Shown: positions 185 to 22,529 of the stretch, piece by piece
Layout: each line of letters begins with the position of its first letter
Position numbering within the stretch: the first letter of the stretch is position 1
IMG/VR virus record: IMGVR_UViG_3300036851_000281
Span: 1-39,280 of that record
Source of the DNA: a virus
Length of the DNA stretch: 39,280 nt
Reading direction: 5' to 3' (one strand)
Notes under the pieces: generated by a model
Told to the model about the DNA's origin: nothing
Seen by the model: only the letters and a program-made list of their open reading frames with translations
Databases searched by the model: none
Translations under genes and position numbers: made by a program

Positions 185-1572
185 ACTTCGTCGTAGGTGC
201 GCATCGCGCCCTCGACCGTGAACTCCTTGGAGCGGATGCGCATGTCCCAGGCGATTGGGTGGCGTGGTGAGGCCTTGGCGCATAGGCCCCGACCGAGCTC
301 CTCGGCCCAGCGGTCGACATAGCTCTCCCACTCGGCCAGGTCGGCGAAGAAGGCGACCACGTCACAGCGCTCGAAGGCCCGCCGCACGGTGCCGTCGATC
401 AGTTCGCGTGGTGCCTCGCCGCCGTATTCTTCGGGATCCCAGACGCCGAGCGTCAGCCAGGCGCCATCGGTGATGCGAGTCGCGATTAGCGCGCAGTGGT
501 CATCGCTCTTCGAGCCGTCGAAGCCGAGCGCGACCTGATCATCGTCCTGCAGGCTGAGCCCTTCGTCGGCCAGGGCATCCCACGCGTAGGGCGCGCACCA
601 GGCGTCCTCGGCGGCCACGATCTGATTCAGGTACTTGCGCCGAGCCTCGCTGGGTGTCGTGCGCGGATCCCAAATCTCGCGGACGTGACGATCGACGTCT
701 AGCCAGTGCGAATCTCCGCGGGCCAGCACCAGCCCCCGACGCAGCGAGCCCTCGTCATCGAGCCGCGTGTCGGGCGGCGCCTCGAGCGAGTCGTACAGGA
801 CGTCGCTGGACCGGGTGCGCCCCTGGGCGATGGCCTGGTAGGCATCCCACTCGCGCTCGCCGACCGAATCGCGCCCCGGGACATGGGCGTTGCAGATCGA
901 CAGCGCGCGCGCCGCACCATCGCGGCTCTTGGCCAGGTTGCCGTCGATGACCTCGGCCATCTCGTGGCCGTCGTTCGAGCTCAACCAGTTCTGAATCTCG
1001 TTGCGCAGTACGAAGGTGACACGCGGCCCCTCGGCTGAGGTCGGCGCTGCGGTGATGGCCTCGATGGTGGCCCTCCCGCCGCGCCCGTAGGCCACCGTCT
1101 GGTGGACCTCGATGCCCTGCATCGTCTTGGCGTGCGGTGTAAGCAGCGGCTCGAAGAGCTTGAAGGTGGTCCGCGTCTGGTGGCGCGCCACGGCGAAGAT
1201 TTGGATCCACGGCGACGGATGCTCGACCGTGATTGGCGACCCGTCGCCTGCCCAGCCGCCGAAACGACAGGGGCCGGCGAACTCGACCAGGGCCATCACC
1301 GCGCCGAGCGGGTCCTTGCCCCAGCCCTTGACCCGGCGTAGCGTGCCGCGACGGAAGAGCCACCGGCCATCGCCGTCGACCGCGTACCACCACGCCAGGA
1401 AGCGCGCCTGCTCGTCGGTGAACTGCCACGCCGCGCCGGCGTCCGGCCCGTCTGGCTGCCGCAGGTTGCGCCGGCACCACCTGGCGACCGGGAGGTAGAG
1501 GGTGTGCTCTGGCCAGCCGCTCGGACCGATGCGGATCGGTTCCGAGAAGAGCTCAGCCCTTGCCTGCGACAC
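1..1572 (-). CDS. terL: Terminase large subunit, 5' part (continues at 39096-39043)
   Basis: DNA-packaging motor: ATPase plus headful or cos nuclease. Across the joint the gene is 1626 nt, 541 residues, ending at 39043. The frame opens at a GTG at 1572 that overlaps the end of terS by 20 nt; no start lies further upstream in frame close by. Visible motifs are a divergent Walker A-like stretch (RRVKGWGKDP) typical of actinophage-type TerL, a Walker B-like region (RVTFVLRNEIQNW) followed by a conserved NLAKS, and an RNase H-like nuclease start (LGFDGSKSDDHCAL). Length and motifs fit a full TerL. No single in-window open frame shows it because it is split by the contig ends. Confidence 0.93.
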   Translation of the reverse strand, partial: MSQARAELFSEPIRIGPSGWPEHTLYLPVARWCRRNLRQPDGPDAGAAWQFTDEQARFLAWWYAVDGDGRWLFRRGTLRRVKGWGKDPLGAVMALVEFAGPCRFGGWAGDGSPITVEHPSPWIQIFAVARHQTRTTFKLFEPLLTPHAKTMQGIEVHQTVAYGRGGRATIEAITAAPTSAEGPRVTFVLRNEIQNWLSSNDGHEMAEVIDGNLAKSRDGAARALSICNAHVPGRDSVGEREWDAYQAIAQGRTRSSDVLYDSLEAPPDTRLDDEGSLRRGLVLARGDSHWLDVDRHVREIWDPRTTPSEARRKYLNQIVAAEDAWCAPYAWDALADEGLSLQDDDQVALGFDGSKSDDHCALIATRITDGAWLTLGVWDPEEYGGEAPRELIDGTVRRAFERCDVVAFFADLAEWESYVDRWAEELGRGLCAKASPRHPIAWDMRIRSKEFTVEGAMRTYDEVVERAFRHDANPRVRQHVHNARQRVNAWGVTFGKEHRQSKRKVDALAAGTLSRMARRAYLAL

Positions 1573-1975
1573 GCCGGTACTGGGCGAGGATGGCGACGTC
1601 GTCATCATCGCCCGCATCGTCGTCGGAGCGCTCGACCTCGATCCGCATCCGGCGCCGGTCGCTCTCCGTGGTGCCCAGCTTGCTCATCGAGGCCAGGATC
1701 GCGTTCACCATTGTCGCCCGCGGTGACCCGGCCAACTCGGCGGTCAGGAGGTCGGCCAGCAGCTGCGCGTAGGCCCAATCAGAGGGCTCGAAGAACTGCG
1801 CCTGCCCCGAGGCGGCGAGGGCGTGAAACCAGCGTCGTGCCTGGGGCTTCCAGTCTTTCGAGGCCCTTGGCACTCGCACTTTGCCGATGACCGAGACGTG
1901 ATCGGGCTCCTGGTCGCTGCTGTGGTGACCGGCTCGCTGACTGGAGCGCTTTGGGACGGGTCCGCGGGTGCCCAT
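1553..1975 (-). CDS. terS: Terminase small subunit
   Basis: 140 residues. It recognises the packaging site on phage DNA and loads the large subunit. The N-terminus (MGTRGPVPKRSSQR) is the basic GxRGPxPK opening common in small terminases of actinophage-type siphoviruses. A central helical part is followed by an acidic patch (DDDAGDDDD) near the C-terminus. The ATG follows a GGAGG-type ribosome site. It lies directly upstream of terL and directly downstream of an unusual repeat-rich intergenic stretch that could be its DNA target. Confidence 0.85.
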   Translation of the reverse strand: MGTRGPVPKRSSQRAGHHSSDQEPDHVSVIGKVRVPRASKDWKPQARRWFHALAASGQAQFFEPSDWAYAQLLADLLTAELAGSPRATMVNAILASMSKLGTTESDRRRMRIEVERSDDDAGDDDDVAILAQYRRVAGKG

Positions 1976-2083: not shown

Positions 2084-2205
2084 GTCTACACCGGGTCCAC
2101 CCTCTCCATGACCTCAGTCCACGGTCTACGTAGGGTGGACCCTATTAGGGTCCACCACCTGGTAGACAACATGGTGTCTACGAAGAGTCCACGATCAGTC
2201 CACGA
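2084..2205. repeat. Repeat-dense intergenic region upstream of terS
   Basis: The sequence between the HNH gene and terS is packed with two short words. GTCTAC or its complement occurs at 2084-2089, 2124-2129, 2162-2167 and 2176-2181. TCCAC or GTGGA occurs at about seven places. The centre is a near-ideal palindrome, GGTGGACCCT-ATT-AGGGTCCACC (2134-2156). A second inverted pair is GTAGAC/GTCTAC (2162-2181), and AGTCCACGA is directly repeated (2186-2194, 2197-2205). The rest of the gap (2033-2083) is G/C-rich with no gene. Position next to terS suggests a packaging (pac/cos) recognition site; an operator or replication iterons are alternatives. Confidence 0.6.
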
Positions 2206-4774: not shown

Positions 4775-4867
4775 CTATCGGGCCAGTACTAGGTCACCTC
4801 CCACAATCAGCCCAATCGCCATCGCCAACAGGAAGGCGACCAGCAACAGCCAAGCGTGGCGCCGCAT
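4775..4867 (-). CDS. Tiny single-span membrane peptide (30 aa)
   Basis: The ATG at 4867 shares a base with the stop of the holin-like gene (TGATG), which is a translational-coupling arrangement. The peptide is MRRH followed by a continuous hydrophobic segment of about 19 residues and a short tail, ending with TAG at 4775. It has the form of a one-span membrane peptide and could be an accessory holin, an antiholin or a pinholin-like protein. There is no sequence family to lean on; the evidence is coupling, hydrophobicity and lysis-module position. Confidence 0.5.
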   Translation of the reverse strand: MRRHAWLLLVAFLLAMAIGLIVGGDLVLAR

Positions 4868-5181
4868 CAGCCCCCGGTGGTCTCATTTGTAACGGGTGCC
4901 GTAGCGCCGCTGCCCAGGCCCTTGCCGGCGTCATAGATACCAGCCGCCGAGGCGCCTGCCAGGATGCCGGTGAGGACCGCCTCGCCCCATCCCAGGCGGA
5001 CCTCTGCCAGCGCCGTGGCGTTGGCTCCGGCCACGATCACGATGCCCAGCCCGACGGCCAGCGCGGCGCCAAAGCGGGCTGAGTCGAAGTTCGGAAGCGC
5101 CGTCTTAATGACGCCCGTCAGGATGAGGACGACCACCGCCGCGCCGGCAACGGTCAGCACGTCCTGTACAGAGAGTTCCAC
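4867..5181 (-). CDS. Holin-like membrane protein (104 aa)
   Basis: The GTG at 5181 follows a strong GAGGAGG site. Three hydrophobic segments are visible: VLTVAGAAVVVLILTGVI (about 8-25), AALAVGLGIVIVAGA (about 39-53) and AVLTGILAGASAAGIY (about 66-82). A short hydrophilic, glycine-rich C-terminus follows. Size, topology and the place directly after the endolysin fit a phage holin that permeabilises the inner membrane. The tiny downstream peptide overlaps it. Confidence 0.7.
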   Translation of the reverse strand: MELSVQDVLTVAGAAVVVLILTGVIKTALPNFDSARFGAALAVGLGIVIVAGANATALAEVRLGWGEAVLTGILAGASAAGIYDAGKGLGSGATAPVTNETTGG

Positions 5182-5195: not shown

Positions 5196-6086
5196 CTATG
5201 CGAGATCGATGGCTTTGACGTAGCCGAAGTGGTCGCCGTTGGTCTGGTACCACGGGACGATGAGAACGTCGCCGTAGACCTGCTCAGCGGCCGGCAGGTC
5301 AGCCTTGGGGATGTAGCCGACCGCGAAGATGCGCGTCTCGGTGGGAACGGTCGCCCACAGTCCAGAGCTGGTCAGGGCGCCCTTGCGGATCGGCTTGCCG
5401 GCCCTGAGGCGATAGGACGGTGCAGCCCCGTCAGGGGCGAGACGGGATCGGAACCTCATGGGATATGGGTCTCCATCTGCGATGTAGCCGGTCGTCGGGG
5501 TCGGGGTCGGGGTCGGTGCAGGACCGACGACGACCTTGTCCGCGTCTGGGACGATCGCCCACTTGCCCGCGTCCCAATAAGCACGCTTCACGACCCAATC
5601 AGGGTAGAAGCGGCGCCCGCGGGTGGGGTCTAGGCGATTGGTGCGAGTGCTGAAGTTTGGGTCGGCCAGCGAGAAGCCGCCGCTCGCATTGGCCCGCAGC
5701 GTGACGCCGTGATCGTCCTGAAAGTCGTGGCCGGCGATCGAGTCCGGCACTAGGCCCATGTCCATGCCGATGATCACCGGACGCCTGCCGGTCGCCAGCA
5801 TGGCGTGGAGCTGGGCGATGGTGGGCCTCGCCAGCCGGCACGGCACGCCCCGCTTGCGGAGCGCATCGCGCTGCTCGGTGACAGTGGTTGACAGCTTCAG
5901 GCTGGTCGTGACCAGGCGCCGGGTGGCGTAGATGCCATAGCGATAGTCGCGGTAGTACCAAGCGACCTGCACCACGGCTGCCATGCCGCAGTTGCCCGGA
6001 GCCGTGCCGGGATCCGGCAGAGGAAGGCGACTGTCGGGGTCCCACTGCATCACCAGCGGGACGTCGATCGCGCGGGCGTAGGCCAT
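5196..6086 (-). CDS. C39-like cysteine peptidase endolysin (296 aa)
   Basis: Predicted cell-wall lytic enzyme. Residues about 10-170 match the peptidase C39-like (papain-fold) layout: catalytic Cys33 in APGNCGMAAV, His126 in DDHGVTL, Asp142 in SLADPNF. A PTPTPTPTT linker (about 191-199) joins a C-terminal domain of about 90 residues with repeated short beta elements, likely an SH3-type wall-binding domain. There is no signal peptide, so it would need the neighbouring holin. The GGGGTC repeats in the DNA at about 5500-5517 encode the Pro-Thr linker. It cuts peptide bonds of the wall by family inference; the exact bond is unknown. Confidence 0.8.
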   Translation of the reverse strand: MAYARAIDVPLVMQWDPDSRLPLPDPGTAPGNCGMAAVVQVAWYYRDYRYGIYATRRLVTTSLKLSTTVTEQRDALRKRGVPCRLARPTIAQLHAMLATGRRPVIIGMDMGLVPDSIAGHDFQDDHGVTLRANASGGFSLADPNFSTRTNRLDPTRGRRFYPDWVVKRAYWDAGKWAIVPDADKVVVGPAPTPTPTPTTGYIADGDPYPMRFRSRLAPDGAAPSYRLRAGKPIRKGALTSSGLWATVPTETRIFAVGYIPKADLPAAEQVYGDVLIVPWYQTNGDHFGYVKAIDLA

Positions 6087-6277
6087 CAGGCGATGTCCAT
6101 CGGGCGGCAGTGCTCACATGGGCGCGCCTCGCCCTTGTCGATCAGGTGGGCCGCGGTGCTGGTGTCGACGCTGATGTCGGCCTCGGTGTCGTCGAGGTTG
6201 CATTCCTCGAAGGCGGGCCAGCGGTGGACGGTGGAGACGCCCTCGCGCACGGTGAGGCGATAGCCAGCTTCGCTCAT
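6086..6277 (-). CDS. Small protein with C-terminal CxxC (63 aa)
   Basis: The start at 6277 has GGGAGGA upstream, and the stop overlaps the endolysin start by one base. The end reads ARPCEHCRPMDIA, a single CxxC that could bind metal as a dimer or be structural. The N-terminal half is a plausible small beta domain. It is translationally coupled to the endolysin, so a lysis-related or virion role is possible. I do not recognise a family. Confidence 0.6.
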   Translation of the reverse strand: MSEAGYRLTVREGVSTVHRWPAFEECNLDDTEADISVDTSTAAHLIDKGEARPCEHCRPMDIA

Positions 6278-6430: not shown

Positions 6431-6715
6431 TCAGAGACAGAGCTCAATGAGCGGAAGACAAAGCAGCGATGGCGATGGCGATGGCGATGGCGTTGGCGTT
6501 GGCGTTGGCGTTGGCGTTGGCGTTGGCGTTGGCGTTGCCGTGGGCTCCACGCTGGGCTCAGGCGTCGGGGTGGCCGTAGGTGCTGTGGTGGTGGCTGACA
6601 CAGCCGGCGGTGCCATCGTCACGGGCGCATCACTGGTAGGCGGCGACTGGTCCGGTGGGACGGGGTAGCAGCCGACCAGGACCACCATGAGCAGCAGCGC
6701 GCTACATCGCGTCAC
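6431..6715 (-). CDS. Thr-Pro-rich lipoprotein (94 aa)
   Basis: It starts MTRC, then a hydrophobic core ending in the lipobox LVGC (Cys16), so export and lipid anchoring are expected. After the cysteine it is Pro/Thr/Ala-rich, with about nine TP or SP dipeptides in a row encoded by a hexanucleotide repeat (6467-6538), then a hydrophobic LLCLPLIELCL end. It overlaps the upstream membrane gene by 14 nt. A small proline-rich lipoprotein behind a membrane/coiled-coil protein recalls Rz1-type outer spanins, which would imply a diderm host. A surface lipoprotein of a monoderm host is equally possible. Confidence 0.65.
   Translation of the reverse strand: MTRCSALLLMVVLVGCYPVPPDQSPPTSDAPVTMAPPAVSATTTAPTATPTPEPSVEPTATPTPTPTPTPTPTPTPSPSPSPSLLCLPLIELCL
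6467..6538. repeat. Hexanucleotide tandem array (12 units)
   Basis: Four CGATGG units (6467-6490) are followed by seven CGTTGG units and one CGTTGC (6491-6538). The array codes for alternating Ser-Pro and Thr-Pro in the lipoprotein. Because the unit is 6 nt, slippage changes linker length without breaking the frame. Confidence 0.95.
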
Positions 6716-7025
6716 GGTGCTGCCGGACCTTCCACTCGGCGCGCTTCACCTCGAGCCACAGGCGGATGCGGCGCCCGACCGGCAGGGCCGTACACAGCAG
6801 CAGCCAGAGCACCGACCGCGCAGCGACCCGCTCCCAGACAACGCTGTCGTCCCGTAGTTCGGTGGCAAAAGCGAGGATGATCGTTGAGCCCACGCCCAGG
6901 ATGGCCAGCAAGGTCGCGCCGCCGCCTGAGCGCCAGCCGTAGGTCGCGCCGAAGACGATGCCGAACACCAGCGTGATGGTCAGCGAACTGGGGTTGAAGG
7001 TGAGGAAGAACTCGGACCAGTTCAC
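6702..7025 (-). CDS. Membrane protein, holin-like (107 aa)
   Basis: Three hydrophobic stretches are visible: LTITLVFGIVFGATYGW, ATLLAILGVGSTIILAFA and AARSVLWLLLCTALPVG. They are followed by a basic C-terminus (RLWLEVKRAEWKVRQHRD). The start overlaps the coiled-coil membrane gene by 4 nt (ATGA). Size and topology suit a second holin or antiholin. It has no catalytic motif. Confidence 0.6.
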   Translation of the reverse strand: MNWSEFFLTFNPSSLTITLVFGIVFGATYGWRSGGGATLLAILGVGSTIILAFATELRDDSVVWERVAARSVLWLLLCTALPVGRRIRLWLEVKRAEWKVRQHRDAM

Positions 7026-7351
7026 TCGCCCGCCCCCTGGCCGAGCCGCCGCAACAGGCGGTTGATTTGGACCTGCTGGTCGTCGACCTTGTGCTCGAGC
7101 TCCTCGCGCCGCTGGACCTCCTTGCCCAGCTCGAGCAGACAGTCGCGCTCGGCCTGCTTGCGGCGGTCGACCTCCTTCTCGAGCTCGCCGATGAGCTCCT
7201 CGCGCAGGTCGACGATGCGCTGTGCCGTGTCGGCCGGCAGGCCGAGGTCCTTGGCCGTGCGTCGGTCGACCCAGGACTTGAGATAGGCACCGCCGACGCC
7301 GGCGATGGCCCCCACCAGGGCGAGGAGTGCGGCCTGCAGGAGAGGATCCAT
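7022..7351 (-). CDS. N-anchored coiled-coil membrane protein (109 aa)
   Basis: One N-terminal membrane segment (LLQAALLALVGAIAGVGGAYL) is followed by about 80 residues of charged heptad-like sequence rich in E, K, R and L (VDLREELIGELEKEVDRRKQ onward), typical of a long coiled coil. This is the build of inner-membrane spanins and of some phage lysis regulators. The ATG has a GGGAGGAT site. It is the first gene after the terminator at 7381-7401 and so would be the first late gene. Confidence 0.65.
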   Translation of the reverse strand: MDPLLQAALLALVGAIAGVGGAYLKSWVDRRTAKDLGLPADTAQRIVDLREELIGELEKEVDRRKQAERDCLLELGKEVQRREELEHKVDDQQVQINRLLRRLGQGAGE

Positions 7352-7380
7352 GGGCTAATCCTCCCTCCCGCGCGGCACAG

Positions 7381-7401
7381 AAAAGCCGCCATCAGGCGGC
7401 T
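7381..7401 (-). terminator. Strong intrinsic terminator upstream of the lysis genes
   Basis: On the minus strand, AGCCGCC-TGAT-GGCGGCT forms a perfect 7-bp stem followed directly by TTTTCTG. It separates the early unit from the lysis module, 30 bp before the first lysis start. It is the clearest rho-independent terminator in the window. Confidence 0.85.
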
Positions 7402-7476
7402 GGTGCGGGGCGTGCCAAAGCACGCTTCAGGTGGGCCCTCCGCGGCTCTCAGGTGCGCCCCGCCATCTTCTCGGTT
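7402..7476 (-). ncRNA. Candidate short leader RNA ending at the terminator
   Basis: A promoter-like site just upstream would start RNA near 7476, giving a transcript of about 95 nt that ends at 7381. It could fold a GCGTGC-CAAA-GCACGC hairpin (7410-7425, written on the plus strand). A competing long-range pairing exists between 7405-7412 and 7456-7463 (8 bp). A possible five-codon frame (MAGRT) near the 5' end follows a GAGAAG. The layout mimics the lambda PR'-6S RNA-tR' arrangement. Existence is inferred only. Confidence 0.4.
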
Positions 7477-7482
7477 GGCGGC

Positions 7483-7512
7483 ACCCTAGCACAGCCGTCG
7501 AATGGCGCGCAA
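7483..7512 (-). promoter_or_regulatory. Candidate late promoter
   Basis: On the minus strand, TTGCGC (7512-7507) and TAGGGT (7488-7483) are spaced 18 bp. It lies between the last early gene and the terminator at 7381-7401, where a regulated late promoter would be expected. By-eye match only. Confidence 0.45.
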
Positions 7513-7524
7513 CGTTTGGCGCGT

Positions 7525-8241
7525 CTAATGCCGCAGCTCGAGCTGGTTCACCGTCTCGCTCACCCGGCGCCAGAGCCAGGGCAGAATGTCCTCGAGCAGC
7601 GGCCGGATGCGCCGGGCTGGGACGAGGTCAGGGACGAGCTCCTCAGGCGGAACGCCGGCGCCGAAGAGCAGCCATGCCACGCGCCCGCACAGCGGCTGGC
7701 CGGCGTGCTCGGTCCACAGGTCGGGGCGGGTCACGTGACGCTTGCGGCAGTAGCCGACCAGCCGGCGCTCGATGGCGAAGGCCCACGGGAAGATGCGGTA
7801 GTCGCGATGGTCGAGGCCCTGCTCGCCGAGCAGCATGGTGACCCCACCGAATCGCCGATGGGCGCGCGAGGCCCAGGGCCAGCCGCCCAGCGGCCCGCGA
7901 TCGGGGACGTCCATCATCGGGCCATCGAGCCGCCGCGCCTCGACCGGGATCGCCACCAGCCCGGTGGCGGTGGCACCATGAAACGGGTGCAGCTGCTCGG
8001 GCAGCTCGGCCTGGTACTCGGCGGCGATGACGTGCACCAGGCAGCAGCGTGGCCGCCAGTCGGCGCCGGTCCAGTAGGCGTTCACGTCCAGCGGGCCGCA
8101 GTACAGCCGCCCGGGGTAGGGCGGCATCGGGTCCCAGGCGCTGGCCGCCGGGCGGTGGTGCTTGTGCGGGTAGCCCTCGAGCTCGTCGAGGAAGCAGACC
8201 GGGCAGGGGTGGATATCGGCGCGGATGGCCGCCTGGCTCAT
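7525..8241 (-). CDS. Unknown Cys/His-containing protein, last early gene (238 aa)
   Basis: I do not recognise the family. Near the N-terminus is CPVC with a following HKHH, and further cysteines occur in RPRCCLVH, GYCRKRHV and QPLCGRV, so metal binding is plausible. The middle (PMMDVPDRGPLGGWPWASR) is poor in charge; the C-terminus is basic and helical. It overlaps the upstream gene by 4 nt (ATGA). It is the final gene before the candidate late promoter and terminator, the position of antiterminator Q in lambdoid phages. That is a positional argument only. Confidence 0.6.
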   Translation of the reverse strand: MSQAAIRADIHPCPVCFLDELEGYPHKHHRPAASAWDPMPPYPGRLYCGPLDVNAYWTGADWRPRCCLVHVIAAEYQAELPEQLHPFHGATATGLVAIPVEARRLDGPMMDVPDRGPLGGWPWASRAHRRFGGVTMLLGEQGLDHRDYRIFPWAFAIERRLVGYCRKRHVTRPDLWTEHAGQPLCGRVAWLLFGAGVPPEELVPDLVPARRIRPLLEDILPWLWRRVSETVNQLELRH

Positions 8242-8870
8242 CGTCCCTCCTCGCTACCCGCTGCTTGGAGGCGGGCGTACTCGGCGCGTTTCCAGTGAAT
8301 ATCCCGGCCCGAGAAGTGGCCCTGGTCCTGGCACTCGGGCTCGTAGCAGCGAGCCATCAGATAGCGAATCAGCTTGCCCTGAGCGACGGCGTAGTCGATC
8401 TCGCTGCGAGTGGAGTCGCCGATGTAGCCGTCCACGTTGAGGACGTAGACCTCATCGGCTAGGTCGATCTTCCGCTTGTGCAACTCGTCCAGCGCCACCT
8501 TCTCGGACGAGTCGTGACCGACGCCTTCACCGTGGCCCTGTGTCGCCTTAGCGTGCGGGTAGAAGCCCACCGACAGCACGATCCGACCCGCCATCGTCTC
8601 CTCATAGTTGGCCTGTTGGAACTCGTCGTAGAAGCGAGTCGAGCCGCACAGACAAACGATGCGCGGTCGGTCCAGCCCGCCAGACCCCGCAGCGCGGGCC
8701 TCGGCCTCCGCATCTTGGAGAAACTGCGCCGCGCGCTGAAGGCCAACAAGATGACCGTCCCCGTATTCGGTCCGGTCGATGCTTTCCATGTACGAAATCT
8801 CTTTGGCGAGTCGCTTAGCAAGTCGCTCGTTCAGCGTTCGGGGGGTCGGTGCTGCGGGCTTGGCGGTCAC
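8238..8870 (-). CDS. Nucleoside 2-deoxyribosyltransferase-like protein (210 aa)
   Basis: An N-terminal helical extension of about 70 residues precedes a domain starting PRIVCLCGSTRF, with a later VYVLNVDGYIGDSTRSEIDYAVAQGK. This is the G-S-T opening and the DxYIGxSTxxEIxYA signature of the nucleoside 2-deoxyribosyltransferase-like / DUF4406 superfamily found in many phages. Members act on (deoxy)nucleosides or nucleotides. In phages the role is often nucleotide salvage or making unusual nucleotides. Coupled by 4-nt overlaps on both sides. Confidence 0.75.
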   Translation of the reverse strand: MTAKPAAPTPRTLNERLAKRLAKEISYMESIDRTEYGDGHLVGLQRAAQFLQDAEAEARAAGSGGLDRPRIVCLCGSTRFYDEFQQANYEETMAGRIVLSVGFYPHAKATQGHGEGVGHDSSEKVALDELHKRKIDLADEVYVLNVDGYIGDSTRSEIDYAVAQGKLIRYLMARCYEPECQDQGHFSGRDIHWKRAEYARLQAAGSEEGR

Positions 8871-9049
8871 TCGGAACCGCCTTTCTCTTGGAGAAGATCA
8901 CGAGCCTCTGAGATAAGACCCCACGGCACGATGTAGCGGTATGGCGGGTCTTTCGCATCGTGGTTCCGGTCCACTTCCTTCACGATCCGCCGAAGCACGT
9001 TCTCGATTCGAGCACCCAGCTCCTCCAAAGAAGGTCGGGGGTCAGCCAT
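8867..9049 (-). CDS. Small helical protein (60 aa)
   Basis: ATG at 9049 overlaps the upstream gene by 8 nt; an earlier in-frame start at 9070 is possible but lies deeper in that gene. It is mostly charged helix (SLEELGARIENVLRRIVKEV). The end overlaps the deoxyribosyltransferase-like gene by 4 nt. No family recognised. Confidence 0.55.
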   Translation of the reverse strand: MADPRPSLEELGARIENVLRRIVKEVDRNHDAKDPPYRYIVPWGLISEARDLLQEKGGSE

Positions 9050-9278
9050 CAGCGGCCTCCAACTCGTCAATGTAATCGAGGAGCAGGGCTTCCTCCTCGG
9101 TCAGGGGGGCCTTCTGCCTTATGCGGATTGGTGCGAAATCTGCGCTACCCCGATTGAATGCCCGGATGTTGTGGACCAACGCCCGATGGACGGCGGCCCC
9201 ATGCTTTGAGGCCAACTGCCGCCCACACTCAGGGCACCGATCGCCGATCAAAGGCAGAGGGTCTACGCGGTCAGCCAT
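9042..9278 (-). CDS. Small C2H2-type zinc-finger protein (78 aa)
   Basis: A classical finger-like pattern, CPECGRQLASKHGAAVHRALVH, lies at about residues 15-36: two Cys spaced CxxC, then two His. The C-terminus (LDYIDELEAADG) resembles the end of the next upstream small protein (FLQESEAADG), suggesting the two share a tail by duplication. Likely nucleic-acid or protein binding; target unknown. It overlaps the upstream gene by 8 nt. Confidence 0.65.
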   Translation of the reverse strand: MADRVDPLPLIGDRCPECGRQLASKHGAAVHRALVHNIRAFNRGSADFAPIRIRQKAPLTEEEALLLDYIDELEAADG

Positions 9279-9522
9279 CAGCGGCCTCGCTTTCTTGGAG
9301 GAAGGAAACGATGGATTCGACTTCAGACCTTGACCGGACTCGCCCTTGCCCGAGCTTCACACGCTCCAGGTCGTAATCGAAGTGCGATCGCCACGTCTTC
9401 TCGCTGTAGTGGTCGCGGAAAAAGGGCGAGCACCCTGCATCACTCGCATGGAGCCGGGCAACCCTCCGCATCATCGTCAAAGAAATCGTGGATCGGGGCA
9501 CGGGGTCAGGTCGGGGTGTCAT
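9271..9522 (-). CDS. Small unknown protein (83 aa)
   Basis: ATG at 9522 overlaps the preceding stop by 4 nt (ATGA). The sequence is basic with an aromatic middle (FFRDHYSEKTWRSHFDYDLE). The C-terminus ends SFLQESEAADG, similar to the neighbouring zinc-finger protein. No family recognised. Confidence 0.55.
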   Translation of the reverse strand: MTPRPDPVPRSTISLTMMRRVARLHASDAGCSPFFRDHYSEKTWRSHFDYDLERVKLGQGRVRSRSEVESIVSFLQESEAADG

Positions 9523-9815
9523 CGCTGGCGTCCTCCATGCACTCTGGCGACGAGACGGGGCAGGCCGGCCCTCGCACGGCGCTTCGACTCGCGGCCCGCC
9601 TGCCGCCTCGCTGCGACGCGCTCCTCGGCGGTGTCGTAGCGCCGCGTGTACTTCGTCGAGTCGCCCGACCGTGGATGAGGGAACCAGCCGCTGGCCCACT
9701 CCTGCGGTGTCCAGGCCTCGTCGCCGACGATCAGCCAGCCCTCCTCGCAGACGTACGAGCCAGGCGGGGCGCCGGGGAAGTCGCGCCGGTCTGGTGACTC
9801 ACCGGGCTGGGTCAC
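9519..9815 (-). CDS. Small unknown protein (98 aa)
   Basis: The GTG at 9815 overlaps the stop of the decayed gene upstream (GTGA). The middle contains a Trp-rich stretch (EEGWLIVGDEAWTPQEWASG). The C-terminal 40 residues are strongly basic (EERVAARRQAGRESKRRAR), suggesting nucleic-acid contact. No family recognised. It is the first intact gene downstream of the attachment site. Confidence 0.55.
   Translation of the reverse strand: MTQPGESPDRRDFPGAPPGSYVCEEGWLIVGDEAWTPQEWASGWFPHPRSGDSTKYTRRYDTAEERVAARRQAGRESKRRARAGLPRLVARVHGGRQR
9794..9803. repeat. Outlying GTGACTCACC site
   Basis: One copy of GTGACTCACC, preceded by G so that the 11-mer GGTGACTCACC is a perfect inverted repeat around one base. 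The other four copies lie at 10146-10167 and 10314-10335 around the attachment core. It may be a distal arm-type site for integrase or excisionase. Confidence 0.5.
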
Positions 9816-10104
9816 TCGAGCCCCGCCTCGAGGATGACCTGGGGCCGGCGGCCGTGGCCGCCTTTCGTCACGCCGCACTTGCGCCATCCCGCCATGAGGA
9901 AGCAGTAGCCAGGGTTCGAGCTCGTCGCCCTCGTTGCGGAATACCGCGCAGTTGATCCCGTCCTGCCCATCGTCGCTCTGGAATCGCCGCCACGCGAAGA
10001 GCGCCCGACTGTCGCGCGCCAGCAGGACGAGCTTCTCGCCCGGCCCCCACGAAGAGCCGCCGATGCCGCCCGTCCCGGTACCGCCGCGCCGAGTAGTCGG
10101 GCAT
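9812..10104 (-). pseudogene. Decayed copy of a common phage hypothetical gene
   Basis: Three frames must be joined to recover a familiar protein. It opens MPDYSARRYR at 10104, shifts to GIGGSSWGPGEKLVLLARDS and GINCAVFRNEG, then shifts again to SSNPGYCFLMAGWRKCGV, ending ILEAGLE at 9812. Intact relatives, as I recall the family, run from NCAVFRNEG through about 30 residues (an LI.EAD..A..RWPG.R.YTYV stretch) to NPGYCF. That middle is missing here. So there are two frameshifts plus an internal deletion. Function of the intact family is unknown. Sequencing error could explain the shifts but not the deletion. Confidence 0.65.
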
Positions 10105-10144
10105 CGCCTGGAGCTGCTCGATCGCGCGGGTCGGAGCGTGGCGC

Positions 10145-10170
10145 GGTGACTCACCGCGTGACTCACCTGG
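10145..10170. repeat. attP arm repeat, copy 1
   Basis: A 25-bp direct repeat occurs perfectly at 10146-10170 and 10314-10338. Each copy holds GTGACTCACC twice, 2 bp apart. The two copies flank the tRNA-like core at 37 bp and 57 bp. Tandem sites either side of the core are what arm-type integrase sites look like. Confidence 0.7.
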
Positions 10171-10206
10171 CGCTTCAGCCTGAGCGTGGTCTGAGCGTGA
10201 CGAGCA

Positions 10207-10256
10207 GGAGGCTGTTAACCGCTTGGTCGTAGGTTCGAATCCTACCGCCGGAGCCA
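10207..10256 (+). other. attP core: 3' half of a tRNA-Asn gene
   Basis: On the plus strand the sequence carries an anticodon loop CTGTTAA (10212-10218, anticodon GTT = Asn), then a perfect T arm (GTAGG-TTCGAAT-CCTAC), a seven-base acceptor strand CGCCGGA, discriminator G and CCA (10254-10256). No matching 5' acceptor or D arm precedes it, and the 5' side of the anticodon stem pairs with a mismatch. So this is a 3' tRNA fragment, not a tRNA gene. Temperate phages carry such fragments to rebuild the host tRNA on integration. Predicted attB: the 3' end of a host tRNA-Asn gene. Confidence 0.85.
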
Positions 10257-10265
10257 CTCTCACGC

Positions 10266-10952
10266 TCATCTAGGGCGCTCCAGCCCGCCCGAGTCCGCTG
10301 CATTCGCAGTCGCGTGACTCACCGCGTGACTCACCTGGGCCTCGATGCGGACCCGGCCGACCGCTCGCTCTTCTGGTTCCACCCATGCCTGGCCGACGGC
10401 CGCGAAGAAGTCACGCTCCTCGGGACAGGGCACGTACTGCCCGGAGCGGTAGACACGGCCACCCTCGACGCGGCGCAGGTAGCGGTGACAGTCGGTGACG
10501 AGGCGGGTGTTCCAGTCGCCTGGGCCAGTACGCAGCGCGTAGATGACGCCCCAGTCGGCCGGTGGCCGGACAATGAACAGGTCGACCGGCAGGCCGCGGA
10601 AGACGAGGGCCTGGTACGCCTCACCCTGCCGCGTCTGCTGTTCGATCTCCCCGCTGGCTCGGTGCACGTCGACCTGCCGCAGCCCGATCTCACCAGCTGC
10701 GAGCAGCTCCACGAGGCGGCCGGTCATGGCTCCAGTGAGCAGGTTGACCTCCTGAGGCGTGCCCCACAGGTCGCCGCCCACGACCTGCGCGATAGTCGGC
10801 ACGGCGACGATCTCGATGTCGGCGACCATCGCCTTTCGCCGGCGGATGCTGCCAGCGACCGCGATGCGATCGCACGCGGGCCACAGCAGGATCGTCAGCT
10901 CTTCGGCGATGGGCTCTGCTACTGCGAGGGGGACTGGCTGGCCCTGACTCAC
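10266..10952 (-). CDS. PolX-like nucleotidyltransferase (228 aa)
   Basis: Polymerase beta-type nucleotidyltransferase fold. The motif VAGSIRRRKAMVADIEIVAV holds Gly34-Ser35, Asp45 and Glu47; the third acidic residue is Asp124 in GLPVDLFIV. This matches the catalytic set of DNA polymerase X enzymes but without the helix-hairpin-helix or PHP domains, so it is a minimal version. Possible roles are gap filling, nucleotide addition or end processing. The C-terminal 25 residues (QVSHAVSHATANAADSGG) are encoded by the attP arm repeat. It starts at 10952 with a 4-nt overlap and ends 10 bp from the tRNA fragment. Confidence 0.75.
   Translation of the reverse strand: MSQGQPVPLAVAEPIAEELTILLWPACDRIAVAGSIRRRKAMVADIEIVAVPTIAQVVGGDLWGTPQEVNLLTGAMTGRLVELLAAGEIGLRQVDVHRASGEIEQQTRQGEAYQALVFRGLPVDLFIVRPPADWGVIYALRTGPGDWNTRLVTDCHRYLRRVEGGRVYRSGQYVPCPEERDFFAAVGQAWVEPEERAVGRVRIEAQVSHAVSHATANAADSGGLERPR
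10314..10338. repeat. attP arm repeat, copy 2
   Basis: Second perfect copy of the 25-bp repeat (other copy 10146-10170), again with two GTGACTCACC boxes (10314-10323, 10326-10335). It lies inside the 3' end of the PolX-like gene. Confidence 0.7.
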
Positions 10953-11182
10953 TGCCGTCGCCTCCTCGCCTTCCGGTTCGGCCGCACCAGTACCGACAGG
11001 CGCTGCACGATCGCCTCGCGTGTCTTCGGATCCTGCAGGTGGGCCGCCAGCTCCTCGTGGCTGATCGTCAGCTGCACCGGGATCTGTGGCTTCTCGTCGC
11101 CCTCGCGATAGGCCAGCAGGGCGGCCAGGTAGGCGAGGACCTCGGGCTTGTCGAGCTCAGGGGCGAGCGGCAGTAGGCTCAT
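10949..11182 (-). CDS. Small unknown protein (77 aa)
   Basis: The ATG at 11182 overlaps the ASCH gene stop by 4 nt. The N-terminal half is hydrophobic-helical (APELDKPEVLAYLAALLAYR); the middle reads IPVQLTISHEELAAHLQDPK; the end is strongly basic (RPNRKARRRRQ). It may be a small DNA-associated protein. No family recognised. Confidence 0.55.
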   Translation of the reverse strand: MSLLPLAPELDKPEVLAYLAALLAYREGDEKPQIPVQLTISHEELAAHLQDPKTREAIVQRLSVLVRPNRKARRRRQ

Positions 11183-11562
11183 GGCGACCACTCCCACAGC
11201 CCCAGCCGTCCTCGTGCCGGGATCAGGTCAACAAGTTCCACGGCCTCATCCAATAGCCACCCGAAGCGTCCGACTGAATAGTCGCCCAGACTCAACTCGT
11301 AAGGCGTCAGGCGTGGTGCCAGAGTTTCGATGCGTACGACGTCGAGCAGGACCGTGGAGCCGATGATGCATCCGAGCGGCAGCGTGTCGGGATCGAGTCT
11401 CAGCTCTTTCGCGAACTCACGAGCCCATGCTGGCATCGTCTTCGCTGCGTGAATCAGCAGCTGCCCACGATGATCAGTCGCCCATGTCCTGGTTTCGATT
11501 CGCTTGTCACCTCGGACCACCATCGTGGCCCACGGCTGCGTCAGGGTTAGCACCTTTGTCAT
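11179..11562 (-). CDS. ASCH domain protein (127 aa)
   Basis: The N-terminus reads VLTLTQPWATMVVRGDKRIE, then TRTWATDHRGQLLIHAAK. This is the ASCH signature: W-A-x(n)-G-x-K-x-I-E-x-R-x-W followed by G-x-L-x-I-H. ASCH is a PUA-like fold that binds RNA or modified bases, and in some enzymes acts as an amidohydrolase on modified cytidine. It is common in phages; the target is unknown. ATG at 11562 overlaps the integrase stop (ATGA). Confidence 0.8.
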   Translation of the reverse strand: MTKVLTLTQPWATMVVRGDKRIETRTWATDHRGQLLIHAAKTMPAWAREFAKELRLDPDTLPLGCIIGSTVLLDVVRIETLAPRLTPYELSLGDYSVGRFGWLLDEAVELVDLIPARGRLGLWEWSP

Positions 11563-12689
11563 CCCAGCAGCGCTCCCACCGCCGCCAGCGCCCTGACCTG
11601 ATCGCCGTTGGCGGTGTCGATGTAGTGCCCGTGGGTGGTGGTCGTGCGCCGATGCCCGAGCCAGTCGGCGATCGTGCGATCGGGCACGCCGGCCTCGAAC
11701 AGGCGCGACCCGAAGGTGGTGCGCAGATTTTTCCACGCCAGCCGTCGCACGCCCGCGCGTTGCTCGATCTCATACAGCCAATGCGTCAGGACCGCCGAGT
11801 GCAGCGGCTCCCCGCCGGGCCGGTCGGCGCGGCCAGGCCTCGTTACGAACACCGGGCCCGTCGTGATCGGCACGAACCCGACGGCTCGCACCTGGGCCTC
11901 CTGAGCCCTCAACGCATCGAGAAGAGCCAGCGCTAGCGGCAGGACGCGGCGCGAGCGGCTGCCGGTCTTCAGCTCGTCTCGGACGTACTGCCCCTCCCGG
12001 CGCGTGGGGCCGATGATGCGGCGCAGGGCGCGCCTGACGTGGAGCCTGGCGCCGTCGTAGTCGATGTCCTCCCACGCCAGCCCGAGCAGCTCGCCCTGAC
12101 GGATTCCCGTACCGATCGAGAGTCGGAGGGCCGGCTCGAGCCACTCGCCGCGCGCGGCGGTGAGCAGACGCGCGATCTCCCGCTCGCTGAAGGCCTCCGG
12201 CTCACGATCCGGCACGCGCGGTGCGTCGATGTACTCGCGACTCGCGACGTTGCGCGCGACGAGTCCCATGCGGCGAGCGTCGCTGAGCGCCTTCCGCAGC
12301 ACAGCGTGGACGTTGCGCAGGTGCTTTGGGCTCATGCGCTCTGCCAGCCCGGATAGCGCGTGCTCCACGTCGAGCGGGGTCAGGTCAGCCAAGCGGATCG
12401 GTCCCACGGTGGGCAGCAGGTGCAGCTCGATCGCCGTCGCGTAGCCGTGTCGGGTGGCGGGTCGGATGTTGCGCACGTCAGCCACCCATCCGACGAGGTA
12501 GTCGCCAGTCGTCTGGCGGCTTCTGCTTACGCCGGCGCGCCGATCGGCCTGCATCTCGGCGAGGGCCACGGCGGCCTCGCGCTGGGTGAGGCGCTTCCGC
12601 CTCTCGTAGCGGCGGGTCTCCCGCCCGCCCGTCGACAGTTGGGCGATCCACCACCGCCCGCTGCGATAGACGCTGCCCTCGCCGGGCAT
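11559..12689 (-). CDS. int: Tyrosine-family integrase (376 aa)
   Basis: Integrates phage DNA at attB and excises it with the excisionase. The start chosen is ATG at 12689 (MPGEGSVYRS), with AGGAGG 6 nt upstream; a GTG at 12704 is possible but has no such site. Residues about 1-50 are an arm-binding beta domain, 60-150 the SAM-like core-binding domain, 165-370 the catalytic domain. Catalytic residues: Arg197 (GTGIRQGEL), Lys241 (DELKTGS), Arg323 in KNLRTTF, His346 (WLGHRR), Tyr356 (HGHYI). The usual box II histidine is replaced by Lys320, a known kind of variation. It transcribes toward attP, 1.3 kb away. Confidence 0.93.
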   Translation of the reverse strand: MPGEGSVYRSGRWWIAQLSTGGRETRRYERRKRLTQREAAVALAEMQADRRAGVSRSRQTTGDYLVGWVADVRNIRPATRHGYATAIELHLLPTVGPIRLADLTPLDVEHALSGLAERMSPKHLRNVHAVLRKALSDARRMGLVARNVASREYIDAPRVPDREPEAFSEREIARLLTAARGEWLEPALRLSIGTGIRQGELLGLAWEDIDYDGARLHVRRALRRIIGPTRREGQYVRDELKTGSRSRRVLPLALALLDALRAQEAQVRAVGFVPITTGPVFVTRPGRADRPGGEPLHSAVLTHWLYEIEQRAGVRRLAWKNLRTTFGSRLFEAGVPDRTIADWLGHRRTTTTHGHYIDTANGDQVRALAAVGALLG

Positions 12690-12873
12690 CCTTCGCCTCC
12701 TCACCGTTCGACGAGTGTAGCCACTCCTGCAACGCTTCGACCGGGATCAGCCACCGCCGCCCGAGCCGGCGCGATGGCAGAGTGCCGCTGTCCAGCGCGC
12801 GGCGCACCGTAGCCTCCGAGACGCCGAGGATCGCGGCGACCTCGGCTGGGCTGTAAGCCAGGCGCTCGCTCAC
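12478..12873 (-). CDS. Excisionase-type HTH protein (131 aa)
   Basis: Residues 1-60 are a MerR-like / HTH_17 DNA-binding domain: LAYSPAEVAAILGVSEATVR, then GTLPSRRLGRRWLIPVEAL. This is the form of small excisionases and other DNA-bending factors. The frame then continues about 70 residues of basic low-complexity sequence that overlaps the integrase start by 212 nt. The overlapping part is probably a by-product of high GC, and an earlier end in ancestors is likely. GTG start at 12873 overlaps the upstream stop (GTGA). Adjacent to integrase, so a recombination directionality role fits. Confidence 0.75.
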   Translation of the reverse strand: MSERLAYSPAEVAAILGVSEATVRRALDSGTLPSRRLGRRWLIPVEALQEWLHSSNGEEAKDARRGQRLSQRAVVDRPTVDGRAGDPPLREAEAPHPARGRRGPRRDAGRSARRRKQKPPDDWRLPRRMGG

Positions 12874-13181
12874 CTGGGCGCCTTCTGGCCGGCGACGAGC
12901 AACTCCTCAGCGCGCCGTTTGCAGCGATCGACTGTCGCCTCGTCCGTCCCGTCGACCAGCAGCGCGACGCTGAGTACGGTCCGTCGGATTGCCACGTCGA
13001 CGACGATGCGCGCGCCCATGCGACCAGCGTCTAGCGTGTGCTCGACGACGCCATCGCCCGCGCTGTGCTCCTGCCAAGCCGGCATCACCACGCCTGGCCA
13101 TAGCGACAGAAGTTCAGGTGCCCACGCCGGTGTCCGCACACCGGGCACCCGAAGATCCACATCCGCAGTCGGCGGTGCCAC
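12870..13181 (-). CDS. Small unknown protein (103 aa)
   Basis: Start GTG at 13181, just after the acyltransferase stop, with a GAGG nearby. The C-terminal half looks like a compact alpha/beta domain (GARIVVDVAIRRTVLSVALL, then a helix ATVDRCKRRAEELLVAG). No family recognised. It links the glycan cassette to the excisionase by a 4-nt overlap. Confidence 0.5.
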   Translation of the reverse strand: MAPPTADVDLRVPGVRTPAWAPELLSLWPGVVMPAWQEHSAGDGVVEHTLDAGRMGARIVVDVAIRRTVLSVALLVDGTDEATVDRCKRRAEELLVAGQKAPR

Positions 13182-13182
13182 C

Positions 13183-13857
13183 TCATGCCAGCGCCGCCAT
13201 GATCCGCGCGTGCAGCGCCTCGATGCGGGGCCAGGCCTCGGGTGGGTAACCGTCGCGCAGGTAGCCGGTCCAGGGGTAGGCGTAGTCGGCGCCGTGGAGC
13301 TCGGTGACCGGCTTCAGCCTGCCGCCCACCAGCGCCATGCCATCAGGCACGTCGCGGGTGACGGTGGTGTTGGCGCCCACGAAGGCACCGATCCCGACCC
13401 TGACGCCGGCCACCACCACGCAGCCGATGGTCAGCACCGCCCCCTCATCGATGGTCGCCGGGGTCGTGGCTCGGCCAGGCGGCGGGGGCAGCCGCACGTC
13501 GGTGATGTAGCAGTCGGCATAGATGCGCGCGAAGTGACGCAGCTGGCCCTCGGTCATCTCGCAGCGGCCGTGGATGCGGACGTAGTCGCCGACCACGCCG
13601 CCGCCCTCCAGCGAGGAGCCGGTGCCGATCCGCAGGTTCGCGCCGACCTCGTTGCCGGTGCGCAGCAGGACGTGATGGCCGGTCTCCAGCCCGGGCCCGT
13701 AGCTCGAGCCGCCCTCGATGATCGAGTGGCTGCGGATGATGCTCCCCGGCCCGAGCTCCAGGTAGCCGTGGTGAGAGCCGATCAGGCAGTACGGCTCGAT
13801 CACCACCGACGGGTCGATCTTCGTGTTGGGGTGGATGATGGCGGTCCGGTGGATCAT
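13183..13857 (-). CDS. Left-handed beta-helix acyltransferase (224 aa)
   Basis: Hexapeptide-repeat (LbH) fold: imperfect [LIV]-G-x(4) turns run from residue 5 to about 180 (IIHPNTKIDPSVVIEPYCLI; GVVGDYVRIHGRCEM; TIGCVVVAGVRVGIGAFVGA; NTTVTRDVPDGMALVGG). The closing VPDGMALVGG loop is typical of O-/N-acetyltransferases of the WbbJ, VatD and sugar-acetylase group. It probably transfers an acyl group to a sugar. It forms a coupled trio with the SGNH hydrolase and glycosyltransferase upstream (4-nt and 1-nt overlaps). Confidence 0.85.
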   Translation of the reverse strand: MIHRTAIIHPNTKIDPSVVIEPYCLIGSHHGYLELGPGSIIRSHSIIEGGSSYGPGLETGHHVLLRTGNEVGANLRIGTGSSLEGGGVVGDYVRIHGRCEMTEGQLRHFARIYADCYITDVRLPPPPGRATTPATIDEGAVLTIGCVVVAGVRVGIGAFVGANTTVTRDVPDGMALVGGRLKPVTELHGADYAYPWTGYLRDGYPPEAWPRIEALHARIMAALA

Positions 13858-14402
13858 CCTCGCCTCCAGGCGTCGAGCGCGGCCTGCACCCTGTGCGCGT
13901 AGCGGCGATGACCCTCGGCGGTTGGGTGAACGCCGTCGGGCAGCAGCAGGTCGATCGAGTCCCAGGCGGCCCGCACGTCGATCAGGCGGGTCCGGGTGTC
14001 CTCAGCCACCTCGCGCAGTGCCTGGTCGTAGTGACACAGGTCGCGGCTGTGGCGCAGGTTCTTGTGCGAGGGGATCAGGGTGCACAGGAACGGCTCGGCG
14101 CCGAAGGCCCGGCAGCGGTCGACCATCTCCGTCAGGTTGGCGGCGTAGGCCCGCTCCGACACCCGCGGCAGGCCGCGGTCGGTCAGCCAGCGATTCGCGT
14201 CGTTGTGGCCGAACTGAATCACCACCGCCTCAGGCTCGTGCCGCTGCACGTCGCTCGGGAAGCGCTCGAGGCCCAGCCGGCTGGTGTCGTCCGGCACCCC
14301 GGCAGCGTGCACCTTGTAGAGCTGCAGCAGCGCCGGCCAGGCCTTCTCGCCATCGGGCAGGTACTGGCCGGCGGTGATGCTGTCACCGATGCACACGATC
14401 AT
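13854..14402 (-). CDS. SGNH/GDSL-type hydrolase (182 aa)
   Basis: All four SGNH blocks are visible: block I VCIGDSITAG (Ser8), block II glycine around residue 38, block III FGHNDANRW (Asn67 region), block V LPDGVHPTAEGH (Asp and His near 159-162). Family members are esterases, lipases or sugar O-acetylesterases, and some transfer acetyl groups. No signal peptide, so it acts in the cytoplasm or in the virion. Between a glycosyltransferase and an acyltransferase, it may edit or add sugar acyl groups. Confidence 0.88.
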   Translation of the reverse strand: MIVCIGDSITAGQYLPDGEKAWPALLQLYKVHAAGVPDDTSRLGLERFPSDVQRHEPEAVVIQFGHNDANRWLTDRGLPRVSERAYAANLTEMVDRCRAFGAEPFLCTLIPSHKNLRHSRDLCHYDQALREVAEDTRTRLIDVRAAWDSIDLLLPDGVHPTAEGHRRYAHRVQAALDAWRRG

Positions 14403-15211
14403 CAGTAGGGCACCGTCTCGTAGTCGAACACCGGCGGCGGCAGGCCTGGGACGTCGTCCTCTTGGCCGGTCTGGGCGACCACCATGACCCGGTCGTTGCA
14501 GAAGGCGCGATTAGCCAGCATGTGGCGCCGGTCGCGCAGCAGCGTCACGTGCTCGACCTCGTAGCGCGCTCGCAGCTGATGCACCGGCCGCACCGGGTAG
14601 CGCGCGGCGCCATGCTGGCGAGCGGGGCGACCGCCGAAGGGCAGCCACACCCGGCGCCCGTGCTTCATGGCGCTATACCAGTAGTGAAAGCGCTCGACCC
14701 GCAGCCCGGGCAGGGCCCGCAGGAAGTGGCAGTGCATGATCCGCTGGCCGGCCAGCTTGCTGTGCCAGTGCGAGGCCGACGACGCCTCGAGGCTGCGCAC
14801 CGGGTGGAGCGGCGTGTAGAACGGGACGCTGAGGATGTCGACGCGACGGTGCACACCTGCCAGCTCGGCACGGGCCGCCGCCCGGTCGGCGTGGATGATG
14901 TGATCGGCGTCGATCAGCGCCAGCCACTTCGAGCCGACAGCCGCCCGGCGCACCAGAAAGGACCGCTTCTCGACCTGGCCCGCCCACAGCTGCTCGGGCA
15001 CGTGGATGTCGCACTCCAGCCCGACCTCGGCCGCGACCCTGCGAATGGTCTCAGCCTGCTTGCGCGGGCTGGCCGGCCTGGCGTCGGGATAGCGGCGGTA
15101 GGCGCCGTCGACGGCCACGATGCGATCGGCGATCTCGCCCGCACCGCGCACGCACGCCTCCAGCAGCGCGGGTGGCTCGTCGTACCAGGCCAGGGCGGCG
15201 GTGATGATCAT
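14402..15211 (-). CDS. Glycosyltransferase, GT-A fold (269 aa)
   Basis: GT2-like start (IITAALAWYDEPPALLEACV, then DRIVAVDGAYRRYPD) and a DxD motif in WLALIDADHII (about residues 96-101), which binds the divalent metal and nucleotide sugar. The second half has the His/Tyr-rich acceptor region (ERFHYWYSAMKHGRR). It is cytoplasmic and has no membrane segment of its own, but a two-span membrane protein is coupled just upstream. Together with the SGNH hydrolase and LbH acyltransferase it forms a three-enzyme cassette. Donor and acceptor are unknown. Confidence 0.8.
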   Translation of the reverse strand: MIITAALAWYDEPPALLEACVRGAGEIADRIVAVDGAYRRYPDARPASPRKQAETIRRVAAEVGLECDIHVPEQLWAGQVEKRSFLVRRAAVGSKWLALIDADHIIHADRAAARAELAGVHRRVDILSVPFYTPLHPVRSLEASSASHWHSKLAGQRIMHCHFLRALPGLRVERFHYWYSAMKHGRRVWLPFGGRPARQHGAARYPVRPVHQLRARYEVEHVTLLRDRRHMLANRAFCNDRVMVVAQTGQEDDVPGLPPPVFDYETVPY

Positions 15212-15372
15212 GGCCGCTCTTCCGGTGTGGCGAGGCCGCGTACGAAGGCATAGGCCAGCGCACTACCCACCAGCGTCTCGATGATCAGCAGGGTCACCAC
15301 GCCTTGCCAGCTGTCGAGCCGATAGGCGGTGGCTAGGGCCACCAGGTTGAGGATGACCAGCACGGCGATCAC
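15208..15372 (-). CDS. Small two-span membrane protein (54 aa)
   Basis: The GTG at 15372 overlaps the RusA stop (GTGA), and the end overlaps the glycosyltransferase start (ATGA). Two hydrophobic segments (VIAVLVILNLVALATA and GVVTLLIIETLVGSALAYAFV) are joined by YRLDSWQ, with a charged tail. It could anchor the cassette enzymes at the membrane or act separately. Confidence 0.6.
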   Translation of the reverse strand: MIAVLVILNLVALATAYRLDSWQGVVTLLIIETLVGSALAYAFVRGLATPEERP

Positions 15373-17234: not shown

Positions 17235-17237
17235 CGG

Positions 17238-17438
17238 TCAACTCAGTCCGCATCGGTCCAGGAGCTCCATGCGCTCAGCGCGCACTAGGCTGGCCTCCAT
17301 GAACAGGCGCTGCGCGGCGGCCCGGGCGGCCGGGGTCGGGATCAGCTCGACGAACCGCGCCTGCTGGCGCAGGGCCTGCTCCTCATCGCGCAGCGCGATC
17401 AGTTGCTCGACATCGCGGGCCATGGCGGGCGACAGCAT
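17238..17438 (-). CDS. Small helical protein (66 aa)
   Basis: ATG at 17438 directly follows the TAG of the preceding gene. All-helical, charged sequence (ARDVEQLIALRDEEQALRQQ) with no motif. It sits 3 bp before the replication ATPase gene, so a replication accessory is possible but not shown. Confidence 0.55.
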   Translation of the reverse strand: MLSPAMARDVEQLIALRDEEQALRQQARFVELIPTPAARAAAQRLFMEASLVRAERMELLDRCGLS

Positions 17439-22433: not shown

Positions 22434-22461
22434 GCCTCGACTGTAGCAGGAAACGCCACGG

Positions 22462-22520: not shown

Positions 22521-22529
22521 TGCTACAGT
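22521..22529 (+). promoter_or_regulatory. Candidate repressor promoter (extended -10)
   Basis: TGCTACAGT is a perfect extended -10 (TGnTAnnnT). Transcription would start near 22536, leaving about 8 nt before the GTG at 22544, an almost leaderless message. The mirror copy at 22440-22448 would start transcription at the Fis-type ATG. Confidence 0.45.

Follow-up and report, generated by a model that had tools for sequence, protein, structure and literature searches.

How a phage withholds its lysis and virion genes until late in infection is well studied for processive antitermination in the lambdoid phages, where Q proteins are encoded at equivalent positions yet show no significant likeness of sequence or structure (PMC7171158). 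The locus considered here, positions 7381-7512 of an uncultured phage, raises the question of whether the same logic operates in a virus related to phages of actinobacteria. A preliminary description had likened the segment to lambda PR'-tR', with a promoter, a short leader RNA and a strong terminator ahead of all late genes, and had placed the preceding gene in the position of Q. Our analysis makes a late promoter and terminator gate, with read-through regulated by a factor, a plausible reading to which we give about even chances. If true, late control in a phage of high GC content could be studied on one compact, testable segment, and there would be a candidate for yet another kind of Q.

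Genome organization and the early-late junction

The window (the whole stretch of DNA analysed, 39,280 nucleotides) is an IMG/VR virus record whose ends, 1-184 and 39097-39280, repeat each other over 184 bp with one mismatch; joined at these ends, it is a circular genome of 39,096 bp. Nearly all genes are carried by the minus strand (Table 1). Because the ends overlap, the late genes run on in one direction round the circle, TerL being joined across the contig ends, and all lysis, packaging, head and tail genes therefore lie downstream of the segment. The claim that these genes follow on a single strand is thus borne out, as is the claim that they are not interrupted by a further clear terminator: no other good co-directional terminator was found between genes. 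The order TerS, TerL, portal and head is conserved in relatives.

The TerL relatives with named hosts are mostly from Actinomycetota, the minority being a few MAGs labelled Chloroflexi, Dehalococcoidia or Clostridia and one Algoriphagus contig. Moreover, the portal is similar to actinophage portals and the early gene 18278-19816 to genes of the Streptomyces phages mu1/6 and VWB. Judged by these similarities, the virus is an uncultured phage, kin to viruses of actinobacteria.

Table 1. Features of the junction and of the surrounding genome.
Feature	Position	Strand	Remarks
Repressor-like gene	22544-22969	plus	
Repressor promoter, extended -10	22521..22529	plus	TGCTACAGT; ahead of the repressor-like gene
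Early promoter, extended -10	22440..22448	minus	TGCTACAGT; 6 nt upstream of the ATG of the first early gene
Early operon	22433 down to 7525	minus	methyltransferase, exonuclease, AAA protein, glycosyltransferase, integrase, others
Last early gene	7525..8241	minus	238-aa Cys/His-containing orphan; coding signal; 4-nt overlap with preceding gene
Imperfect dyad	7505..7522		GCGCCAAACGTTGCGCGC; overlaps the -35; palindrome search; single copy in the window
Late promoter candidate	7483..7512	minus	-35 TTGCGC 7512-7507, N18, TAGGGT 7488-7483
Extended -10 of late promoter	7491-7483	minus	TGCTAGGGT; TGC before TAGGGT
Predicted leader RNA	7380..7476	minus	about 95 nt, GC-rich; expected start 7476 to end of T-run
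Leader hairpin	7405..7463	minus	predicted; closing 8-bp GC helix, 7463-7456 with 7412-7405
Candidate antiterminator pairing	7375..7456	minus	7456-7442 with terminator 3' arm and T-run 7389-7375; weak
Predicted intrinsic terminator	7380..7401	minus	AGCCGCC-TGAT-GGCGGCT; 7-bp stem, TTTTCTG tail
Ribosome-binding site of first late gene	7359..7369	minus	GGGAGGGAGGA; downstream of the terminator
Late genes	from 7351 to 24306	minus	via lysis, TerS, TerL, portal, head and tail
First late gene, holin-like	7022..7351	minus	one membrane segment and coiled coil; weak PHROG match
Membrane protein, probable lysis gene	6702..7025	minus	sequence and position; G720 7203-7595 alike in plan
Endolysin candidate	5196..6086	minus	position; C39-like Cys motif by reading
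Small multi-helix membrane protein, second holin candidate	4867..5181	minus	32% alignment with G720 8832-9200
Second promoter-like match	2139..2169	minus	TTGTCT-N19-TAGGGT; upstream of TerS and within a repeat cluster
TerS-like protein	1553..1975	minus	
TerL	39043 across join to 1617	minus	after TerS
Portal	37657-39033	minus	
Major head protein	34368-35264	minus	
Tape measure	28331-30316	minus	
GT87-like gene, membrane protein	23475-24374	plus	

Candidate promoter, leader RNA and terminator

Promoter, leader and terminator all lie on the minus strand, a point that the preliminary description left unstated. The TTGCGC-N18-TAGGGT match that it reported ahead of the lysis genes is present on that strand and exceeds what chance predicts. 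It agrees with six of the 12 bases of the consensus, which is that of Escherichia coli, and was missed by an E. coli-type scan. Because only half of that consensus is matched, the extended -10 pattern TGNTANNNT was tested; a TGC precedes TAGGGT, so that the late -10 counts as an extended -10, a feature of greater weight in GC-rich hosts. Both strands of the genome together hold four TGNTANNNT sites, against 8.3 +/- 2.9 in shuffles; three are at expected control points (repressor, early and late), where they have TGCTANNGT in common, and the fourth is inside a gene. Among the four, only the late site has a TTG -35 at 16-18 nt, and it is the sole TTGN3-N16..18-extended -10 of the genome (0.0033 per kb per strand in simulation, or about 0.26 expected). 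The extended -10 pattern is good evidence for a late promoter, if short of proof, and its occurrence at the repressor, early and late points was counted in favour of late control at 7381-7512. Transcription would start at about 7476, as judged from the position of the -10.

Other elements around this promoter are less distinct. The dyad over the -35 is a possible protein-binding site. A Q-binding element, one of two cis elements known for Q, was sought in the 18-nt spacer and no clear direct repeat was found there, by eye or by repeat search; for the other, GAAGAT at +7 to +12 matches a -10-like sigma pause element, but a match of this kind is present in about 10% of 25-mers. The lack of a clear Q-binding element and the chance-level pause match were both counted against the gate. 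As to the early promoter, the first early gene (22230-22448 region) encodes a Fis-type HTH protein and begins 6 nt past its -10; with so short a distance, its mRNA is probably leaderless, a common state in actinobacteria.

The RNA from 7476 to 7376 has a predicted folding energy of -50.4 kcal/mol (z = -3.06 against shuffles). The leader had been described as having competing hairpins, and an alternative pairing that would open the terminator does exist, in which 7450-7442 meets the 3' arm and T-run and, over the whole of 7456-7442, 13 of 15 positions pair; however, at -44.4 kcal/mol it lies about 6 kcal/mol above the terminator state, which is thus favoured. An equally good partner for the 3' arm of the terminator is offered by 1.5% of shuffled leaders. 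A search of the leader against Rfam gave no match. A 5-codon leader ORF (7468-7451) was considered and set aside, as the purine run is too close to its ATG.

The terminator at 7401-7380 is the top hit of a standard terminator scan. In a second-order Markov simulation, hairpins as good as 7401-7384 arise at 0.011 per kb per strand, and 1.2 Mb of simulated sequence did not once yield the combination of stem and T-run; out of 3000 shuffled versions of the region, 19 come up to this hairpin, and about 0.002 terminators this good are expected in such a gap. TTTT occurs at just five places on the minus strand, one of which is the tail of this terminator. By these counts, both the promoter-like and the terminator signals exceed chance. 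The terminator had been called the best in the window, which stands for the coding strand between genes; a stronger stem is found inside a gene at 22747-22776. That hairpin (13-bp stem and, on the minus strand, a TCTTC tail) is the strongest of the genome; it sits antisense in the repressor-like gene and was for this reason rejected as a rival, as was the hairpin 17589-17653, which lies in ORF 17439-17777; with both inside genes, the description is a fair one within its narrower scope. The hairpin 22747-22776 might itself end late transcription. About 30 nt separate the T-run from the first late gene, and they hold its ribosome-binding site and no promoter. Since this site and the ATG fall within 35 nt after the terminator, a terminated RNA carries no gene. 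In vivo, termination would be expected at 7401-7380.

Relatives, known systems and the last early gene

Only two cousins, IMGVR_UViG_3300043595_000047 (G720) and IMGVR_UViG_3300018432_000009 (G721), share the lysis cassette. Both have the replication gene of the window and a lysis cassette of the same plan, and the plan of the holin-like first late gene recurs in G720 (6862-7206) and G721 (33595-33906). Upstream of its junction G720 carries an integrase and a relative of the window gene 10949-11197, and its lysis cassette includes a relative of the window gene 6086-6277; with related genes on both sides, G720 has the same early-late junction as the window. The G720 junction (76 nt) is AT-rich, with a promoter-like patch as AT-rich as just 0.3% of its 45-mers and a dyad, but no terminator; that of G721 (78 nt) has a hairpin but no T-run, and hence no terminator either. 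The absence of a terminator from both junctions was counted against the gate. The patch in G720 makes it plausible that late transcription starts there; the late start is therefore probably conserved at this junction, whereas the leader and the terminator are peculiar to the virus in the window. Moreover, the last early protein of G720 is unrelated to that of the window. The comparison fits a swappable module of gate and factor, and equally fits an incidental insulator.

An extended -10, a terminator and a downstream gene occur in this arrangement once in the window and only four times across the loci retrieved (1.56 Mb), and none of those four sits at a late junction comparable to this one. 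Loci identified through TerL have a different lysis module and thus provide no test of the leader. Four relatives (L019 1109-1127, L021 9499-9517, L023 9544-9566 and L024 3293-3315) carry a hairpin about 20 nt upstream of TerS; the CCGACA core is common to them, the stems differ and the tail is TTTC. It looked like the same device and could be a terminator that precedes the first late gene, or else a cos/TerS site; with a tail of only TTTC and a possible role in packaging, it was not counted as support.

The likeness to lambda PR'-tR' with Q extends to the order of last early gene, promoter, short leader, intrinsic terminator and lysis genes, and to the terminase and virion genes that come next on the same strand. 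The leader is about half as long as that of lambda. In contrast to lambda, the window has no Q-family match, no recognized Q-binding element, a pause element at chance level and a GC-rich promoter of actinobacterial type. At the level of sequence, the comparison with PR'-tR' holds for gene order, position, promoter, terminator and the downstream ribosome-binding site; it fails for the Q families, and the cousins are without a terminator. The junction may be PR'-tR'-like in its working but cannot be assigned to a Q family. Among other systems, Xanthomonas phage Xp10 provides in p7 a phage factor for processive antitermination at intrinsic terminators, as proposed here, but p7 is a 7-kDa protein whereas that of the window has 238 aa; P7 complexes have been solved and are in the PDB (PMC6624301), and a phmmer search of the 238-aa protein against PDB sequences gave no p7 match.

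Related in host range, as judged by TerL, portal and early-gene relatives, are the actinophages L5/D29 and mu1/6. Streptomyces phage mu1/6 resembles the window in its unidirectional early-to-late order with a Cys-type regulator as last early gene: its gene 17056-17694, annotated as WhiB-like, is the last before a 123-nt gap that contains a strong GC hairpin without a T-run and is followed by the late genes. The Wbl domain PF02467 (WhiB) was matched neither by the window nor by its cousins G720 and G721. The late start of L5/D29 was until recently not well understood (PMC5712189), and in the open-access literature searched we found no described case of late processive antitermination in actinophages.

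The gene 7525-8241 ends 12 nt ahead of the -35 and thus has the position of a last early gene before a late promoter. The Cys/His pairs of its product suggest metal binding. Up to E = 10 the protein matches nothing in Pfam or PHROG, and it has no meaningful phmmer match among PDB sequences; relatives were found neither by tblastn in 50,697 phages, nor by peptide-pattern scans of IMG/VR or GTDB, nor in 697 genomes sampled from the phyla to which L104 and L103 belong; the searches left three hits at E 0.02-0.09. A single-sequence AlphaFold model reached a pLDDT of 36, too low to permit a search by fold. The absence of a relative or usable fold was counted against the gate. Known Q proteins have position and function in common but differ in sequence and structure; they belong to three Pfam families, PF03589, PF06530 and PF06323 (PMC7171158; PMC6606751). 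Six-frame searches of the window detected neither PF03589 nor PF06530, the positive controls for both being detected; PF06323 also gave no match, but neither did its controls. A weak PF06530 match in G721 (20373-20495) was rejected, being below cut-off and 13 kb from the junction. Because known Q proteins are themselves dissimilar in sequence, lack of homology does not exclude an antiterminator. The placing of this gene where Q would be thus stands as to position, while its sequence gives no evidence for the role, and that it encodes the antiterminator is doubtful. The wider proposal, that the protein founds a new, unrelated Q-type family working with RNA polymerase of actinobacterial type, and that lambda-like late control arose independently in a lineage resembling actinophages, we likewise consider rather unlikely.

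Alternative readings of the junction

In the reading that we favour, 7381-7512 would be the control point of the late operon. Host-type RNA polymerase would start at about 7476 from the extended -10 promoter, and the structured RNA of about 95 nt would stop at 7401-7380, short of the ribosome-binding site that serves the first lysis gene; transcripts of the early operon that come in via the gene 7525-8241 would meet the same terminator. The late genes would be expressed once polymerase is made to pass it, most likely by an early phage product that modifies polymerase at or near the late promoter, for which the last early gene is the leading, if unproven, candidate. In favour of this reading were counted the extended -10 sites at the three control points, the improbability of the terminator in this gap, the rarity of the joint arrangement, the promoter-free stretch after the T-run, the closed circle and the patch in G720. 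The same terminator could instead serve only to insulate: it would end the early operon and keep early polymerases out of the lysis genes, control of the promoter would lie at initiation (a factor bound to the dyad over the -35 is one example), and enough polymerases would leak past late in infection, with no antitermination. The G720 junction, with its promoter-like patch and dyad and no terminator, agrees with this, as does a six-of-12 promoter match that could need an activator; the last early gene of an actinophage can encode a transcription factor, as the annotation in mu1/6 illustrates. However, a terminator downstream of the promoter would also cut late transcription, so that an upstream placement would be better; the dyad is a single weak palindrome, and WhiB was not matched in the three genomes. 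We consider insulation rather unlikely.

A gate might also control only the lysis genes, if packaging, head and tail genes start from a promoter of their own at 2139-2169 ahead of TerS. This match has the same -10 hexamer and is one of only seven TTNNNN-N16..19-TANNNT matches in the genome, and the site was counted against a gate for all late genes. Its spacer is 19 nt, however, it lacks an extended -10, and its -10 makes up one half of a 21-bp palindrome within a cluster of GTRGAC repeats resembling a packaging or binding site; such a restricted gate is unlikely. That the leader itself drives read-through, by alternative pairing or as a put-like RNA acting on polymerase, has a precedent in the put RNAs of HK022, of about 70 nt with two stem-loops (PMC9378689), which are likewise short structured RNAs near a phage promoter that could modify elongation. 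The compact fold and the alternative pairing, rarely equalled in shuffled leaders, point the same way. The put RNAs, however, act in early operons, whereas the leader has no Rfam match and no homologues from which sequence or covariation support could be drawn, and its terminator state is the favoured one; we hold this to be very unlikely. Finally, the signals could be chance matches, or could belong to a free-standing small RNA that plays no part in late control. The half-matched promoter would allow this, and abundant intergenic RNAs without known role occur in actinophages (PMC5712189; PMC10986025), but each signal by itself is unlikely, and the one early-late junction has both of them in the expected order, which makes this most improbable.

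The repeat cluster directly ahead of TerS (2084-2203) contains 10 of the 46 GTRGAC hexamers of the genome, in both orientations and several of them 11 bp apart, together with the 21-bp near-palindrome; elsewhere GTRGAC never exceeds two per 130 nt. It is a candidate TerS-binding or packaging site. In the lysis cassette, the endolysin candidate had no library match, and a tRNA-Thr call at 6129-6220 (plus strand) is probably a false positive; it lies antisense over the gene 6086-6277, which has a relative in G720 (46%). Genes at 13183-15211 and 23475-24374 encode a hexapeptide-repeat protein, an SGNH-type esterase-like protein, a glycosyltransferase and the GT87-like membrane protein, a possible surface-modification set carried by the phage.
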